Source of the DNA: Hydrogenothermaceae bacterium
Lineage (GTDB): Bacteria; Aquificota; Aquificia; Aquificales; Hydrogenothermaceae
Assembly (NCBI GenBank): GCA_026418455.1
Contig: JAOABH010000006.1
Coordinates: 1-55,017, forward strand
Direction of reading: 5' to 3'
DNA length: 55,017 nt
The position numbers and the translations under genes are program-made. This document shows positions 8,168-14,837 of the stretch, in pieces. The notes beneath the pieces are model-generated. The model was not told the DNA's origin. It did not search any database and worked only from the letters and a program-made list of their open reading frames with translations. The first letter of the stretch is position 1. The number at the start of each line of letters is the position of its first letter.

Positions 8168-9091
8168 TTAACTATCTTTTTTCAATGAGAAAACTGATAA
8201 GATTAGAAATATTGATAAAGTAACTCCTAAGTAGAAAGTTACAGCTTTTAGATATGAGAAATCACCATTAAACAGTATTAAAATTGAAGATAAATTCTCC
8301 ATAAAAAATGTTATTGTTAGTAAGACACCAATTATTACTATAATTTTTCTTCTATTTGCGCTAAAACCTGCAAAATGTGTCAAAGTAAAAGAAAAAAGAG
8401 CCATAGTTAGAAGATGTGGATAAAAAGATTTCATCACTCCGGAAACTGTTTTAGCTCTTTTGAATTTTTCTGGATTACCTAAAAAATACTCTTTAATGCC
8501 AGATACAGATAATCCAAACTTTGAGAAATATATCAAAGCAGTAGATACTAAAAATAGAGAAAGCAATAAGGTTGATACATATATGATAATTTTTTGTAGA
8601 GATATTCTCTTTCCGGGAGTTTTCCCTCTGATAAGATGGTTTAATACCATTAATATCATAAGTCCGGATATGACTTGAAAACCGAAAAATGTGTATAGTT
8701 TAGAGTAGATAACTAAACTTTCTGAAAAGAGTATTACAAAGTCCGATAATAGGTAAGCTATACATAGGAGAGCAGACAAAATTATAATTGAAACTTTCAA
8801 TCTGTATCTAACCTCAGTCATTGCAAGTAGTGATGATAGCATCAAATAAAAAAAAGAGTAAAGGAAACTATTTATATGAAAATCTTCTGAAAGCTGTTGT
8901 AATGATATTCTCTCCGGAAACTCTGGGTCTGTAAAGTAGTATTTAAATAGAGAGTTATAATCAAAGCCATACTTGAAGTAGAAGTTTAAAAATCCGGATA
9001 ACCAGAATAAAAAGGAGAAGACTAAAAAAGATAAAACAGCCCAGTATAGCCCTTTTTTAGAATGTAGGTCTCCAGTTATCAGAAATTTCAA
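8168..9091 (-). CDS. 8-TM inner-membrane protein with duplicated 4-TM module; partner of FMN-binding protein
   Basis: The 307 residues give about eight predicted transmembrane helices (near 17-37, 73-91, 99-119, 134-153, 167-189, 224-242, 249-269, 282-303). The halves look homologous. Residues 40-90 contain YYFTDPEFPE then DFHINSFLY; residues 190-242 contain EYFLGNPEKF then SFYPHLLTM. Both are followed by a basic turn and two more helices. Histidines 72, 226 and 239 fall at or near helix starts and could bind heme or metal. It overlaps the exported FMN-binding gene by 4 bp, so the pair is translationally coupled. I infer a membrane electron-transfer partner. I do not recognise a named family. 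Confidence 0.6.
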   Translation of the reverse strand: MKFLITGDLHSKKGLYWAVLSFLVFSFLFWLSGFLNFYFKYGFDYNSLFKYYFTDPEFPERISLQQLSEDFHINSFLYSFFYLMLSSLLAMTEVRYRLKVSIIILSALLCIAYLLSDFVILFSESLVIYSKLYTFFGFQVISGLMILMVLNHLIRGKTPGKRISLQKIIIYVSTLLLSLFLVSTALIYFSKFGLSVSGIKEYFLGNPEKFKRAKTVSGVMKSFYPHLLTMALFSFTLTHFAGFSANRRKIIVIIGVLLTITFFMENLSSILILFNGDFSYLKAVTFYLGVTLSIFLILSVFSLKKDS

Positions 9092-9609
9092 CTACCTTCT
9101 CCAAATAATGTTTTCCAAAGTATTATAGCTTTTCTTCCATTTTCTGTGATGGCTCGTGAAGTTAATGTTGCTCCGGTTAAGTTTTGGATATCCTTTCTAA
9201 ATTTTAAACTATTTTCATCTCTCTTTGAAAACTGTTTGAACCAACTCTCTTCAGGTAAATACTCCAAAGGTTCATTAAAGGCAAGTACCTCTACAACATC
9301 AATTTTACCGTCAGGGGTTATTGTGTAAAGAACTGCTTCCGGCTTTGTTCTGACAGTGTGAATATCTACATAACCATAAGCTATTACTTTACTATCTTTC
9401 TTGACTATATAAAATGTAACTATCCTTGAGTCTAACTTTACATTGTAATCTCTTTGAAGTTTTTCTATAACCGAGTAAGGAATAACTATATTTTTAACCT
9501 CTATTGTAGAAGATGGGTATATCTGTTTTAAAGCTTCCTCTGTTTTTTTCGGTGTAAAACCAAACCCTATTTTATAAATTAGTAAAATAGCCAATAAAAT
9601 TTTAACCAT
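9088..9609 (-). CDS. exported FMN-binding domain protein (RnfG/NqrC-like)
   Basis: The 173 residues start with a hydrophobic signal peptide (MVKILLAILLIYKIGFGF). The C terminus has LTGATLTSRAITENGRKA, matching the FMN_bind signature (S/T)GATxT, whose last Thr receives FMN through a phosphoester bond. ApbE, which makes that bond, is encoded 4 kb away at 13666-14538. An upstream in-frame TTG at 9621 is part of the GGAGG ribosome site, so ATG 9609 is chosen. A Fur-like palindrome (9631-9647) covers its -10 region. It probably transfers electrons outside the cytoplasm with the membrane protein downstream. RnfG/NqrC proper are longer and lie in large operons, which are absent here. Confidence 0.83.
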   Translation of the reverse strand: MVKILLAILLIYKIGFGFTPKKTEEALKQIYPSSTIEVKNIVIPYSVIEKLQRDYNVKLDSRIVTFYIVKKDSKVIAYGYVDIHTVRTKPEAVLYTITPDGKIDVVEVLAFNEPLEYLPEESWFKQFSKRDENSLKFRKDIQNLTGATLTSRAITENGRKAIILWKTLFGEGS

Positions 9610-9630: not shown

Positions 9631-9647
9631 TTGAAATTATATCTCAA
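9631..9647 (-). promoter_or_regulatory. Fur-like operator and -10 region of the FMN-binding gene
   Basis: In the gene direction it reads TTGAGATATAATTTCAA, an imperfect inverted repeat (TTGAGA...TTTCAA) with TATAAT inside. It ends 22 nt before the ATG. The same 17-bp pattern precedes the porin and the 55-aa gene at near-identical spacing. The TGAGAxT half-site resembles Fur-family boxes. A possible -35, ATGACT, lies 18 bp upstream of TATAAT. Confidence 0.6.
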
Positions 9648-9694
9648 AGTCTTATTTAAAGTCATAATTCTTAAATTATGGCTGTAGTATCAAA

Positions 9695-9714
9695 CAGGAG
9701 AGATATCTCTCCTG
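9695..9714 (-). terminator. hairpin after the porin gene
   Basis: A perfect 20-bp palindrome CAGGAGAGATATCTCTCCTG is followed by TTTGAT on the minus strand, 15 bp past the porin stop. It is probably the porin transcript's terminator, with a short U-run. Confidence 0.6.
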
Positions 9715-9728
9715 CCTATGTTAACTCC

Positions 9729-11096
9729 TTAAAACATAAATCCTAAAGTAAACCTATAGTGATTCTCATCTTTCTTATTTTTATTGTAATCCAGCCTTGC
9801 ATAGTCAGCCTTTAAAGCTACAAGAGGGTGAGGTTTATAACTGAATCCTATATTGAATACTTGTAGTTTGTGACCTGCAGGTTTTGTATATCCTATTGGA
9901 ATGGCAGAATGAGTATCAATATTTTCATATACACCGAAGAGATATAACTCTTGATTTGTTATATCTGTTAATCTAAAGATGTTATACGCAATCTGAGTGT
10001 AGAATCCCTTTTGCTCCTTTGGAAATCCATCTTTGGTTTTATCTACTCCTATATCCTGTGATATTTTTTCCCCATTATTAACTTTTGTGTAAGCTCCTAC
10101 TGCTCTAATGTCCCAACCGTTATGTTGATACCAAATATAAGGTGATATGATAGTTATATCTCCAAGATCTGCTCCATTTCTCAAACCAAGTTTACTTGTG
10201 GTTCCACCTTTTGATACAACATCTCCAGTCCAGAAAGATCCGCCTATCTTTAAGTTGCTTGGAAGATTATACTCAATTTTACCTGTAAAGCCAACTCCGT
10301 CTGCACTTGCCCTTGCACCTCTCTGTATTAAATTTTTAAGAGGTTGTGTTGAGCTGTAGCTTCCATTTCCTGCTATCATAAGTCCATTGGTTATGTAAAA
10401 CTTGTAATCAAGATTTCCTAACTTTCCATAGGCTCCAAAACCCATCTCTTCCCATGTTGAAAGAAGTAATCTCGTTTCTAAGAATGGTCTTTGAGCTGTT
10501 GGAAATGTAGGAGGTTCATGGTACTCGTTTATTATACCTATAGGTATAAGTAGTAAACCTCCTCTAACTCCAAACTTTTCGCTAAAGTTATAGTCTAAAA
10601 AAGCCATCTCTGTTTTATAGTATCCACCACCATTTCCATGATTTGCATTTGTGGAAGAGTGTTCTAACTCAATTTCGGAGTTGAATTTTAATTTTTCATT
10701 AAATGCATAACCTAAGTAGAGAATCAATCTCTGCATATCTGTTATGTTTTTACTACCTGTAGCTGCGTCATTTCTAACGAAAGTGAGCTCTCCATACCCA
10801 CCTATGGATACGCCTTTTTTATTAAACATTGCCTTTGAGGCAGCCGGACCAAGTCCATAGTAAGGCTTAACCTCAAGTTCTCCTATGACGTTTTCAAGTT
10901 TAAGTTGTCTTATCTCCTCTTTAAGAACTTCTGTCTCTTCCTTCACAACTTTCTGCTGTTGCTGTTCCTTCTTTAACTCCTCTATCTGTTGCTGAAGTAG
11001 TTTTATTTGCTCCTCAAGCTGTTTTATCTTGGAATCATCAGCAAAAGATGACCCAACAGTTGTAAGCATTGCAGCTGTAAGTAAAACCTTCTTCAT
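9729..11096 (-). CDS. outer-membrane porin with N-terminal coiled coil
   Basis: The 455 residues begin with a signal peptide (cleavage near SSFA-DD). A Gln/Lys/Glu-rich coiled coil follows at about 22-70, as in Aquificota and epsilonproteobacterial porins that anchor to the cell wall. The rest is a beta barrel of alternating aromatic strands ending in RFTLGFMF, with the terminal Phe used by the BAM machinery. Substrate is unknown. The start is ATG 11096, 9 nt after AGGAGG; an upstream ATG at about 11102 is in another frame. A Fur-like palindrome overlaps its -10 region, linking it to the FMN-binding gene. Confidence 0.85.
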   Translation of the reverse strand: MKKVLLTAAMLTTVGSSFADDSKIKQLEEQIKLLQQQIEELKKEQQQQKVVKEETEVLKEEIRQLKLENVIGELEVKPYYGLGPAASKAMFNKKGVSIGGYGELTFVRNDAATGSKNITDMQRLILYLGYAFNEKLKFNSEIELEHSSTNANHGNGGGYYKTEMAFLDYNFSEKFGVRGGLLLIPIGIINEYHEPPTFPTAQRPFLETRLLLSTWEEMGFGAYGKLGNLDYKFYITNGLMIAGNGSYSSTQPLKNLIQRGARASADGVGFTGKIEYNLPSNLKIGGSFWTGDVVSKGGTTSKLGLRNGADLGDITIISPYIWYQHNGWDIRAVGAYTKVNNGEKISQDIGVDKTKDGFPKEQKGFYTQIAYNIFRLTDITNQELYLFGVYENIDTHSAIPIGYTKPAGHKLQVFNIGFSYKPHPLVALKADYARLDYNKNKKDENHYRFTLGFMF

Positions 11097-11118
11097 ATGA
11101 CATTACCTCCTATTGAAA

Positions 11119-11135
11119 TTGAAATTATGTCTCAA
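11119..11135 (-). promoter_or_regulatory. Fur-like operator and -10 region of the porin gene
   Basis: In the gene direction it reads TTGAGACATAATTTCAA, differing by one base from the site before the FMN-binding gene. It ends 23 nt before the porin ATG and includes CATAAT as the likely -10. The repressor role and its identity are inferred. Confidence 0.6.
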
Positions 11136-11269
11136 ATTATATTTAAATGATAAATATTTTTCTATGATAGAAAAAGCGATTTCATCATAAAATTATTGAA
11201 ATCCTAGGATTGGAAAGTAATATTAATAATTGTAATAATTGATACATAGATTTTATAGGAGAAAATTTG

Positions 11270-13690
11270 ATGGAATATAAAGGATTAAGCTCTATAGAAG
11301 CACAAAATAAGCTTAAACAGTATGGATATAACAAAATAAAAAATTATCATAAGTTAACAGATATAGATATTTTTATAAACCAATTTAAAAATCCTTATCT
11401 TTTACTGCTTTTATTTACAGCTTTTTTGTCTTTGTTTCTTGGAGAAAAAATTGATGCAGTGATAATAATTTTTATTGTTTTAATAGGTGTAGTTTTAGAT
11501 TTTTGGCAGGAGAGAACTGCCTATAAAACTGTTGAAAAATTACTGTCTATGGTTAAAACTTATGCAACAGCTATAAGAGATGGAAAAGAAATAGAGATTC
11601 CTATAGAAGAAGTTGTTCCAGAAGATATAATTGTATTAAATGCTGGAGATATAGTCCCTGCAGATATGATTTTACTTGAATCGAAAGATTTATTTATAAA
11701 TGAATCTTTACTTACAGGGGAACCTTATCCTGTTGAGAAAAAATCCTCAGATAAGCTCTTTATGGGAACTCATGTTGTAAGTGGATTTGGTGTTGCAAAG
11801 GTTGAAAAAACCGGAGAAAACACTCAGTATGGACAACTAATCAAAAGAGTAGAGCTTGGAAAGGAAGAAACAGACTTTGAAAGAGGATTAAGGCATTTTG
11901 GTTATTCCCTTTTAGAGATAGCTACAATCTTGATTTTAATAGTTTTTACCATTAATGCATATTTTAATAGAGGTATTATAGAATCCTTACTTTTTTCCCT
12001 TTCCCTTGGGATTGGTATAGCTCCAGTGCTTTTACCAGCTGTAGTTAGTATAGGACTGTCCTACGGAGCAAAACATATGGCACGAAAAGGTGCTATAGTT
12101 AAGAGATTAGTATCTATAGAAAATTTTGGTAGTATGGATATCCTCTGTACTGATAAAACCGGAACTTTAACCTTAGGTCAGATGAAAGTTTATAGTTATA
12201 TTGATATTACAGATAAGGAAAATGAAAGATTGCATATTTATGCTTGTTTAAATGCTATTTTTCAGACAGGTTATGAAAATCCAATTGATGAAGCTATAAA
12301 ATCTACCTGTGATAAAAATCTATCGTCAAGTTACAAAAAATTAGATGAAATTCCATACGATTTTAATAGAAAAAGATTGTCTATCTTGATTAAAGAAGAG
12401 GATAAAAACATAGTTATAACAAAAGGTGCCTATAAAGAAGTTTTAGGTATATGTAAATATGTAGAGGTAGAAAATGAGATTAAACCTATAGAGTATTTTA
12501 AAGAGCAAATAGAAAATCTGTATTTTAGATATAGTAAAGAAGGTTTTAAGATTATTGTGTTGGCTTATAAAGAAACAGAAAAAGACAGTTTAGCTTATGC
12601 AGATGAAAACTCAATGATACTTTTGGGATTTATTATTCTTTTTGATCCCCTTAGAGAAGATGCAAAAGAGACAATAGAAAGATTAAAAAATTATGGAGTA
12701 AATGTAAAGATAATAACCGGAGATAACAGGTTAGTTGCATTACATATAGCAAAATCCTTAGGTATCGGAGAAAAGATATTAACCGGAGAGGAACTCTCAA
12801 AACTTAATTCTGGGGCATTATTAAACATCATAAAAGACATTACTATATTTGCAGAGTTAACACCCCTTCAAAAAGAGACAGTTGTTCATTATCTAAAAAA
12901 AGCAGGTTTTACAGTAGGCTATATGGGAGATGGTATAAATGATATTGCTGCTATGAGAGCCTCTGACGTTGCTATTTCTGTCCAAAATGCTGTTGATATA
13001 GCAAAAGAAACTGCAGATATAGTTATGACAAGTTACAATTTAAATCTAATAGCAGATGCAATTTTAGAGGGTAGAAAAACATTTTTAAACACTCTTAAAT
13101 ACATATTTATGCAAACAAGTTCAAATTTTGGAAATGTATTTTCAATGGCAGGAGCATCTTTAATAGTTCCATTTTTACCTTTACTGCCAAAGCAAGTTCT
13201 TACTATTAATATGCTTAGTGATACAGCCGTAATGTCAATCCCTGCTGACAGTGTAGATAAAGACTGGATAGAAAAACCTGTTAAATGGAATTTAGATTTT
13301 ATAAAAAAATTTATGTTTATATTTGGACTTATCAGCTCTTTATACGATTATATCACTTTTACTTTTTTGTTATATATTTTAAAGGCAGATACATATATCT
13401 TTAGAAGTGGATGGTTTTTAGAAAGTATTTTAACTCAGCTTGCTGTTCTCCTTGTCCTTAGAACTAGAAAGCCATTTTATAAGAGTAAACCTTCAAAACT
13501 ATTGATAATTACTGTTTCTGCAATTTTTGTAGTTTCTTTTATTCTTCCTTATACACCCATAGGAAAGCTTTTAGAACTTTATCCTCTAAATATAGAGACA
13601 TACATATTTGTATTTTGCGTAATTATATCCTATGTGATAACTGTAGAGATAGGTAAATTTTTATTTTACCGTAAGATAATATCAAAATAA
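11270..13690 (+). CDS. P3-type ATPase (MgtA-like, possible Mg2+ or H+ transporter)
   Basis: This is an inner-membrane P-type ATPase of about 806 residues. It has actuator motif LLTGEPYPVEK, phosphorylated Asp in DILCTDKTGTLT, ITGDN and MGDGINDIAAMRASDVAISV. The segment after the P domain (TSSNFGNVFSMAGAS, FLPLLPKQVL, then IPADSVD and PVKWN) is close to MgtA/MgtB magnesium importers. However, M4 reads PVLLP (12023-12037), without the Glu of MgtA PEMLP, and resembles the PVGLP of P3A proton pumps. It is about 90 residues shorter than MgtA. ATG 11270 follows AGGAG by 8 nt; a TTG lies one codon earlier. It overlaps apbE convergently. Confidence 0.85.
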   Translation: MEYKGLSSIEAQNKLKQYGYNKIKNYHKLTDIDIFINQFKNPYLLLLLFTAFLSLFLGEKIDAVIIIFIVLIGVVLDFWQERTAYKTVEKLLSMVKTYATAIRDGKEIEIPIEEVVPEDIIVLNAGDIVPADMILLESKDLFINESLLTGEPYPVEKKSSDKLFMGTHVVSGFGVAKVEKTGENTQYGQLIKRVELGKEETDFERGLRHFGYSLLEIATILILIVFTINAYFNRGIIESLLFSLSLGIGIAPVLLPAVVSIGLSYGAKHMARKGAIVKRLVSIENFGSMDILCTDKTGTLTLGQMKVYSYIDITDKENERLHIYACLNAIFQTGYENPIDEAIKSTCDKNLSSSYKKLDEIPYDFNRKRLSILIKEEDKNIVITKGAYKEVLGICKYVEVENEIKPIEYFKEQIENLYFRYSKEGFKIIVLAYKETEKDSLAYADENSMILLGFIILFDPLREDAKETIERLKNYGVNVKIITGDNRLVALHIAKSLGIGEKILTGEELSKLNSGALLNIIKDITIFAELTPLQKETVVHYLKKAGFTVGYMGDGINDIAAMRASDVAISVQNAVDIAKETADIVMTSYNLNLIADAILEGRKTFLNTLKYIFMQTSSNFGNVFSMAGASLIVPFLPLLPKQVLTINMLSDTAVMSIPADSVDKDWIEKPVKWNLDFIKKFMFIFGLISSLYDYITFTFLLYILKADTYIFRSGWFLESILTQLAVLLVLRTRKPFYKSKPSKLLIITVSAIFVVSFILPYTPIGKLLELYPLNIETYIFVFCVIISYVITVEIGKFLFYRKIISK

Positions 13691-14538
13691 CTTCTAAATT
13701 TAGAATTAAACCAAATAGAGCCGTCCTTAAAAAGGATGAATACTCCAAAATCTTGATTGTCTTTTAAAAATTTCTCTCTATTTTCTCTATCCATTGAAAA
13801 AATTCCTGTTGATAAAGCATCTGTTATGCTACAATCTGTATAAGCAACGGTAATTTGTAGTATCTCCGTAGGTTTTCCTATTATATGGTCTTGGAAGTAA
13901 TTTCCTGAGGTTGAAAGACATACATCTTTTTTATTTATAACTTCTGCTAAAATGTCTTTTGTTTGTGGATTGTATATACCTAACCTTCTCTTCTGTCCCC
14001 AAACTTTTAAATCTCCGGCTATGGCTATAAATCCTGTAGGCAATTTATCTTTATATCTTTGATAAGCCTTTTCTACTGCATATCCCTTTCCTATTCCTCC
14101 AAGATCTATAGCCATTCCTTCTTTGGTAAGACATACTTTGTTATTTTCTATCTTTATATTTCTATAATCTATCAAATTAAATGCTGTCTCTCTCGGTAAT
14201 ATGTTTTTCCTTTTATAATTTATAGTAACTGATCCAACTGTTATATCAAAATAGCCACCTGTTAGCTCAGAAACATATACAGCTTGCTTGATTACTTCTA
14301 ATGTCTCTGGAGAAACCTCCACACATTCTTTACCTGCTACGCTGTTTATTTTTTCTATATCTGAATCATCTCTATAATCAGATAGAATTTTATCCAGATA
14401 AGATATATATCTATATATCTCATAGTTATACTTTTTTGTATCTACTATAAGATACGTTCCCATTACGTTGAATACTTTTTCCTCTCCGAAAGCTGTCAAT
14501 GAAAAAATGATAATCATCAAGTAAATAATCTTAACCAT
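13666..14538 (-). CDS. apbE: FAD:protein FMN transferase
   Basis: ApbE transfers FMN from FAD to a Thr/Ser of FMN-binding domains in exported proteins, using Mg2+. The 290 residues have an N-terminal signal (MVKIIYLMIIIFSLTAFG), VMGTYLIV, the DLGGIGKGYAVEKAY flavin-site motif, GDLKVWG, and SITDALSTGIFSMDRE near the C terminus. No lipobox Cys is evident, so it is probably periplasmic or anchored by its N-terminal helix. The FMN-binding protein at 9088-9609 is the evident local substrate. The gene ends inside the ATPase gene (25-bp convergent overlap). It starts 95 bp from the Fur-like palindrome at 14633. Confidence 0.93.
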   Translation of the reverse strand: MVKIIYLMIIIFSLTAFGEEKVFNVMGTYLIVDTKKYNYEIYRYISYLDKILSDYRDDSDIEKINSVAGKECVEVSPETLEVIKQAVYVSELTGGYFDITVGSVTINYKRKNILPRETAFNLIDYRNIKIENNKVCLTKEGMAIDLGGIGKGYAVEKAYQRYKDKLPTGFIAIAGDLKVWGQKRRLGIYNPQTKDILAEVINKKDVCLSTSGNYFQDHIIGKPTEILQITVAYTDCSITDALSTGIFSMDRENREKFLKDNQDFGVFILFKDGSIWFNSKFRSYFDIILR

Positions 14539-14632
14539 TTAAATACCAACCTCAAAAAGGATTTATAAACAGTTAAATATAAAGTTTATTCAGTGGTTCT
14601 GATTTTAATCATAGAATTTCTCCTTTATTTAT

Positions 14633-14649
14633 TTGAGAATAAATCTCAA
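14633..14649 (+). promoter_or_regulatory. Fur-like operator upstream of the 55-aa gene
   Basis: TTGAGA-ATAAA-TCTCAA is a perfect inverted repeat ending 20 nt before ATG 14670. It is the third copy of the pattern before the porin and FMN-binding genes. It lies between divergent apbE and the small gene, so it could control both, but the distance to apbE is larger. Confidence 0.55.
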
Positions 14650-14669: not shown

Positions 14670-14837
14670 ATGTCTATTAAAGAAGTTGAAATTAGAATCA
14701 ATCAAATCTCTGAAGAATTTACAGAGTTAATACAGAAAGAGGAGAATTATGAAAAGAAAATTAAGCTTTTTGAAAGTTTTTACAAAACATTAAATCTTAT
14801 TCAGGATATATACAATCCTACAAAAATTCTAAATTAA
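14670..14837 (+). CDS. small helical protein, 55 aa, unknown
   Basis: ATG 14670 follows GGAGG by 6 nt and runs to TAA at 14837. The product is highly charged and probably all helix (ISEEFTELIQKEENYEKKIK ... [15 protein letters not shown]), with no Cys, signal or membrane segment. I do not recognise a family. Support for a real gene is the strong ribosome site, a Fur-like operator at the same distance as in two neighbouring units, and a clean frame. It overlaps the end of rlmB convergently by 9 bp. Confidence 0.6.
   Translation: MSIKEVEIRINQISEEFTELIQKEENYEKKIKLFESFYKTLNLIQDIYNPTKILN

Follow-up and report, generated by a model that had tools for sequence, protein, structure and literature searches.

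In delta-proteobacteria, a 17-bp palindromic Fur box lies at feoAB and at porin genes (PMC545781). Clusters of genes for flavinylated iron reductases have been proposed in other bacteria, and some of these clusters are repressed by Fur (PMC8238504). The main text of PMC8238504 contains no word beginning with "Aquific", and we found no earlier study of a Fur regulon or an iron-uptake regulon in Aquificales in the open-access literature. Here we describe a Fur-box-like palindrome from this order. The window that we analyzed (55,017 nt) spans a complete contig from a genome of 1.54 Mb; the nearest named relatives are Hydrogenothermaceae and Sulfurihydrogenibium.

Three palindromes upstream of three transcription units

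The original prediction was that three copies of one palindrome precede a porin gene, the genes for an FMN-binding protein and its membrane partner (TM307), and a gene for a 55-amino-acid protein (s55) beside apbE. All three 17-mers are at the predicted positions and read as predicted in the direction of the genes (Table 1). Their short distance to the start codons also holds: 21 nt for the FMN-binding protein, 22 nt for the porin, and 20 nt for the 55-amino-acid ORF, if the likely starts are the ATGs at 9609 (with GGAGGATATA just ahead of it), 11096, and 14670. Two of the sites do contain a -10-like hexamer (TATAAT in the first and CATAAT in the second). The core, TGAGATT-T-AATCTCA, is a palindrome of the 7-1-7 type and is located at promoters, as is expected of a Fur box.

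Table 1. Features of the window that are discussed in the text
Feature	Position	Strand	Remarks
TM307, 8-helix membrane partner, tandem duplication	8168..9091	-	start overlaps the stop of the FMN-binding gene
Exported FMN-binding protein, RnfG/NqrC-like, flavinylation motif TGAT (T148 invariant)	9088..9609	-	Pfam FMN_bind, above cut-off
Candidate Fur-box-like operator TTGAGATATAATTTCAA	9631..9647	-	precedes the FMN-binding/TM307 operon; TATAAT inside; exact match to the strict pattern; second-best window site by the other-genera matrix
Outer-membrane porin, N-terminal coiled coil, Porin_O_P type	9729..11096	-	Pfam Porin_O_P, above cut-off
Candidate Fur-box-like operator TTGAGACATAATTTCAA	11119..11135	-	precedes the porin gene
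ApbE flavin transferase	13666..14538	-	Pfam ApbE, 149.9 bits; divergent from s55 in the window
Candidate Fur-box-like operator TTGAGAATAAATCTCAA	14633..14649	+	precedes the 55-aa gene; the divergent apbE starts 94 nt away; best window site by the other-genera matrix
s55, 55-aa protein, predicted two-helix hairpin	14670..14837	+	family-conserved

We ranked the sites in the window with a matrix that was built only from the sites of other genera. The three palindromes scored 24.5, 18.1, and 16.7, and the next matches scored 6.9 or less, so the window has no fourth copy, as had been noted. We also simulated the window 60 times with a Markov model; the third-best match then had a mean score of 9.2 and never scored above 15.4.

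We did not include the P-type ATPase gene (11267-13690) in the putative regulon. It is divergent from the porin gene in the window, but not in the related genome G001.

Frequency and placement of the motif

We rejected counts of the loose motif as evidence, because they do not tell signal from noise. With three mismatches allowed, the pattern is at chance in the window (28 found versus 35 expected), and across the genome TTGARANNNNNTYTCAA is at background (7 occurrences versus 6 in the reversed control). Since the looser motif occurs genome-wide only at background frequency, it is the placement of the sites that carries the argument. The strict consensus TTGARAYWWWRTYTCAA is enriched in the window genome (5 versus 1 in the reversed control) and across 25 genomes of the family (23 versus 6). 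The positions of these exact matches are not random: 16 of the 23 are directly upstream of the genes under discussion, five are in CRISPR leaders or in an array, and two are inside ORFs. (Patterns were counted genome-wide, and the matrix was scored on selected stretches.) A putative site before cytochrome genes (C3:619693) was not counted, as it does not fit the strict pattern with up to one mismatch.

Outside of the window, the same genome has TTGATATTTAGTCTCAA directly before feoA-feoB (C8:355276) and a perfect box before the gene for a small outer-membrane barrel of 236 amino acids (C3:673909). The box is 13-22 nt from the start codon in four of the five units and about 40 nt from it in the case of the barrel gene.

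The feoB genes provided a held-out test. For this we used a matrix that was trained only on the promoters of the porin, flavoprotein, and 55-amino-acid genes, with no feoB promoters. (The training set contains the three window sites, and the outcome at feoB is independent of their inclusion.) A score of 11 or more was reached in 15 of 16 held-out gaps facing feoB, versus 5 of 80 gaps that adjoin neither feoB nor the training genes (P = 1.8e-12, Fisher's test). Two of these five high-scoring gaps are in fact genes for the 55-amino-acid protein that fall below the ORF length limit.

Across the family, feoB was found and examined in 23 genomes. All of these have the box at feoAB or feoB, and most have a strong one. 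The Feo boxes are weaker in genera g3, g4, g7, and g9, and these and the Feo boxes of the Aquificaceae score 8-15, so the operator may drift. In the Aquificaceae and in a third family, the box at feoA is weaker or absent (about 8-11 where present), and at stand-alone feoA genes it is stronger (19.6 in both G034 and G030).

The sites are conserved together with their genes in related genomes. The palindrome precedes porin, FMN-binding, s55, apbE, or small-barrel genes in about ten genera, and the gene for an OprB-like barrel has it in G003, G011, and G024. A box lies before the orthologous porin in five genomes (G001, G008, G012, G020, and G015) and in loci from Sulfurihydrogenibium yellowstonense and Hydrogenobacter, and the 17-mer TTGAGAATAAATCTCAA is identical before the s55 ortholog in G001 and G015. 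The genes also tend to be found together. Of the 41 genomes, 20 encode the FMN-binding protein, and its recurrent neighbours are the porin, TM307 (or its two halves), ApbE, and the 55-amino-acid protein; in most relatives that have this module, the porin ortholog adjoins the FMN-binding and TM307 genes. In G008 and in S. yellowstonense SS-5, feoB, the barrel, s55, the porin, the FMN-binding protein, TM307, and apbE form a single cluster with about five boxes. In G012 and G020, the porin and FMN-binding genes are divergent and have a single box in common.

We also note that in G005 the FMN-binding and porin frames are interrupted (L070, 7579-7992 and 8153-9424), which may be due to decay or to an assembly error. 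The Aquificaceae have a small gene (MKVVVLGGHDRLK..., probably DUF2325) that is preceded by box-like palindromes and is located close to the porin operon or ahead of it (L150, 4381 and 4859; L056, 3032; L177, 2076).

The proteins of the module

The FMN-binding protein is similar to RnfG and NqrC, and solved structures of RnfG match the profile of the family. Residues N143, G146, and T148 are invariant in 15 sequences, and T148 lies within the flavinylation motif. The gene for ApbE is close to the FMN-binding gene in the window and is also within the clusters of relatives. An exported FMN_bind protein with a flavinylation motif and a nearby apbE are two features of extracytosolic electron transfer by ApbE-flavinylated proteins, and we infer that ApbE attaches FMN to this protein. 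Some relatives have a diheme lipoprotein (two CxxCH motifs) in the operon, which is absent from the window genome. We also found FMN-binding and TM307 genes on a contig that is labelled as Acidobacteria (L183); this is likely to be a mis-binned contig from Aquificota or a case of transfer.

TM307 is a new membrane-protein family. It has no match in Pfam, NCBIfam, or PHROGs, its profile has no match among the sequences of solved structures, and its relatives were found almost only in Aquificota. In particular, TM307 does not resemble the membrane proteins of PepSY-like or MsrQ-like reductases: it matches neither PepSY (PF03929 or PF16357) nor the MsrQ-like family (PF01794), and its model has no fold match in the PDB. 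The AlphaFold2 model has eight long helices (pLDDT 87.7). In a fold search of the PDB, no match to it was significant, and heme A synthase matched only weakly (E = 1.9). The two halves of TM307 align with each other (hhalign probability 98%), which indicates an internal duplication, and in several genera they are separate genes. His72, His226, and His239 are invariant, and H72 and H226 are in equivalent helices. As a guess, this placement would suit a b-type heme.

The 55-amino-acid protein is a real, conserved protein that opens iron or flavin operons. It is present in 10 of 41 genomes, all of one family, with a 65% identical ortholog in G001, and it adjoins the cluster in several of them. 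Depending on the relative, s55 leads a unit with apbE, with the FMN-binding gene, or with the barrel; s55 and apbE are in one operon in G005 and G012. The model of the predicted hairpin has a pLDDT of 87. Pfam matches to poxvirus A27 and DUF5638 were weak and below the cut-off, so we disregarded them.

Proposed role in reductive iron uptake

We consider it likely that Fur-Fe(II) represses a module for reductive iron uptake that comprises the pores, the flavoprotein, TM307, and FeoAB. The box, its conservation, its placement, its sharing with feoAB, and the linkage of the genes were computed from the genomes; Fur binding, dependence on iron, FMN attachment, the path of the electrons, and iron reduction are our interpretation of them. 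When iron is replete, Fur-Fe(II) would block transcription by occupying the 17-bp box, which either overlaps the promoter or lies against it. In iron shortage, the three units in the window, feoAB, and the small outer-membrane barrel would be switched on together. The outer-membrane pores would then let in ferric iron or its chelates. TM307 would hand electrons from the membrane to the FMN-binding protein, once flavinylated by ApbE, and the flavoprotein would reduce ferric iron in the periplasm. FeoAB would import the resulting ferrous iron, and the s55 hairpin may be an accessory protein of the uptake system.

Not all parts of this proposal are equally probable. That the flavoprotein module functions in iron reduction is our favored reading, with some reservation. 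More tentatively, and with slightly more doubt than belief, we suggest that TM307 and the FMN-binding protein are an undescribed type of ferric reductase that acts from the membrane to the periplasm. TM307, as a duplicated four-helix protein whose histidines are symmetric, would pass electrons from quinol to its flavinylated partner. Together with s55, this would be a new kind of Fur-controlled reductive iron uptake in the Aquificales.

The main rival for the function, possible though unlikely, is that the box is a Fur operator and that the module is instead an iron-sparing electron carrier, which replaces cytochromes when iron is short. There is a parallel in Desulfovibrio, where a flavodoxin is predicted to be controlled by Fur and to replace iron proteins (PMC545781). 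However, the lipoprotein with two CxxCH motifs that is encoded in the operon of several relatives would cost iron, and the genes of the module lie together with those for feoB and outer-membrane pores. We therefore prefer a role in iron uptake.

Which protein binds the palindrome?

It had been proposed that one metal-responsive repressor of the Fur family controls the porin, the flavoprotein with its membrane partner, and the small protein. Our comparisons across genomes support this and narrow it to iron and to Fur, which very probably is the protein that binds these palindromes. The window genome encodes three proteins of the Fur family (PF01475). The one at C3:484658 has the motif HHDHLICLNCG, and its best matches in the PDB are Fur proteins; its best NCBIfam model is the Helicobacter-type Fur, with a score below the cut-off for that model. 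Most genomes have an ortholog of this protein at 41-76% identity (31-44% in the third family). The genomes without a strong match are G004 and G022, which are incomplete; nearly all other relatives have one. The boxes at feoAB, several of which are weak, would place iron uptake under the control of this operator, as in a Fur regulon. Such regulons often, though not necessarily, include fur itself. In the stretch L019 there is no box upstream of fur, where fur follows genes in the same direction whose promoter lies outside of the stretch.

The palindrome could also be bound by one of the other two proteins (PerR-like C3:479239 or Zur/PerR-like C8:44349), in which case the signal would be peroxide, manganese, or zinc. 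The boxes of the Fur family look alike and the genome encodes three such proteins, but the targets are for the uptake of ferrous iron, and only the Fur ortholog is near-universal. Furthermore, G005 and G010 lack a protein of the C8:44349 type and yet have strong boxes. In G009 (97% complete), the Fur ortholog is the only Fur-family protein that we detected, and boxes are kept at feoB (14.4) and at the OprB-like gene (12.6). For this reason Fur is the best candidate, and we think that control by a paralog is improbable.

Each palindrome is just upstream of a ribosome-binding site and could form a short stem, so it might act in the RNA, as a hairpin of the 5' leader through which translation is controlled, and not as a site in DNA for a protein. 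If a stem were selected for, then G-U pairs should be favored over A-C mismatches. Instead, among 34 sites that were assigned to promoters and read in the direction of the gene, the asymmetric positions correspond to A-C mismatches 19 times and to G-U 12 times, which shows no preference for RNA pairing. Also, one box serves both of the divergent genes in G012 and G020. We consider a hairpin very unlikely, and a protein-binding site for Fur remains our preferred explanation. That the three palindromes arose by chance is scarcely credible: loose versions are at background genome-wide, but the held-out test at feoB and the footprint over about ten genera already contradict this.

Similar palindromes near CRISPR arrays

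In several genera, an element that is conserved over about 200 bp carries the conserved palindrome TGAGATTTTRTCTCA, which is very similar to the Fur box and is roughly 220 nt from the array. Copies are at C3:292900 (L006, 1331-1550) and C3:563868 (L170) in G000, and also in L167, L168, L169, L172, and L205-L232. The element appears to be a CRISPR leader, because many copies of it have their core at the same distance from a repeat array (about 130 nt). If Fur bound the palindrome in this putative leader, then iron would affect the transcription of CRISPR arrays. An exact copy of the box also lies inside an apparent CRISPR spacer (L167, 2014; G010 C3:16613), which is probably a coincidence.

Comparison with known systems

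The closest described operator is the dFUR-box of delta-proteobacteria, WTGAAAATNATTTTCAW, which was found by comparative genomics (PMC545781). Like our motif, it is a 17-bp palindrome with TTGA and TCAA at its ends, and it precedes feoAB, porins, and genes for electron transfer. The half-site described here is TTGAGAT (consensus TTGARAYWWWRTYTCAA), the targets additionally include FMN-binding/TM307 and s55, and the regulon of the Aquificales is absent from PMC545781.

The module resembles the PepSY-like and MsrQ-like clusters for assimilatory iron reduction, which combine ApbE with an extracytosolic FMN-binding protein, are proposed to reduce iron, and are repressed by Fur in Shewanella and Caulobacter (PMC8238504). 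Our module differs in that the membrane component is TM307, which belongs to no Pfam family, and in that the set includes pores and s55. FsrB with FeoAB from Bradyrhizobium japonicum is a working analogue, as ferric iron is reduced in the periplasm to supply FeoAB (PMC10760861); FsrB is a COG3182 protein, whereas the reductase that we propose is an RnfG-like flavoprotein. RnfG and NqrC themselves share the FMN_bind domain and the flavinylation motif, but here the protein is small, exported, and stand-alone, with no adjacent Rnf or Nqr subunits.

The class of mechanism is known, and what is new is the operator in Aquificales, the TM307 family, and s55. For this thermophilic order, which is deep-branching, there is now a Fur operator and an iron regulon that can be tested, and there are likely roles in iron uptake for genes that were unannotated: a family of membrane proteins, a family of small proteins, two outer-membrane barrels, and a diheme lipoprotein. 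TM307 would add a membrane component to the known flavin-based iron reductases of the periplasm.
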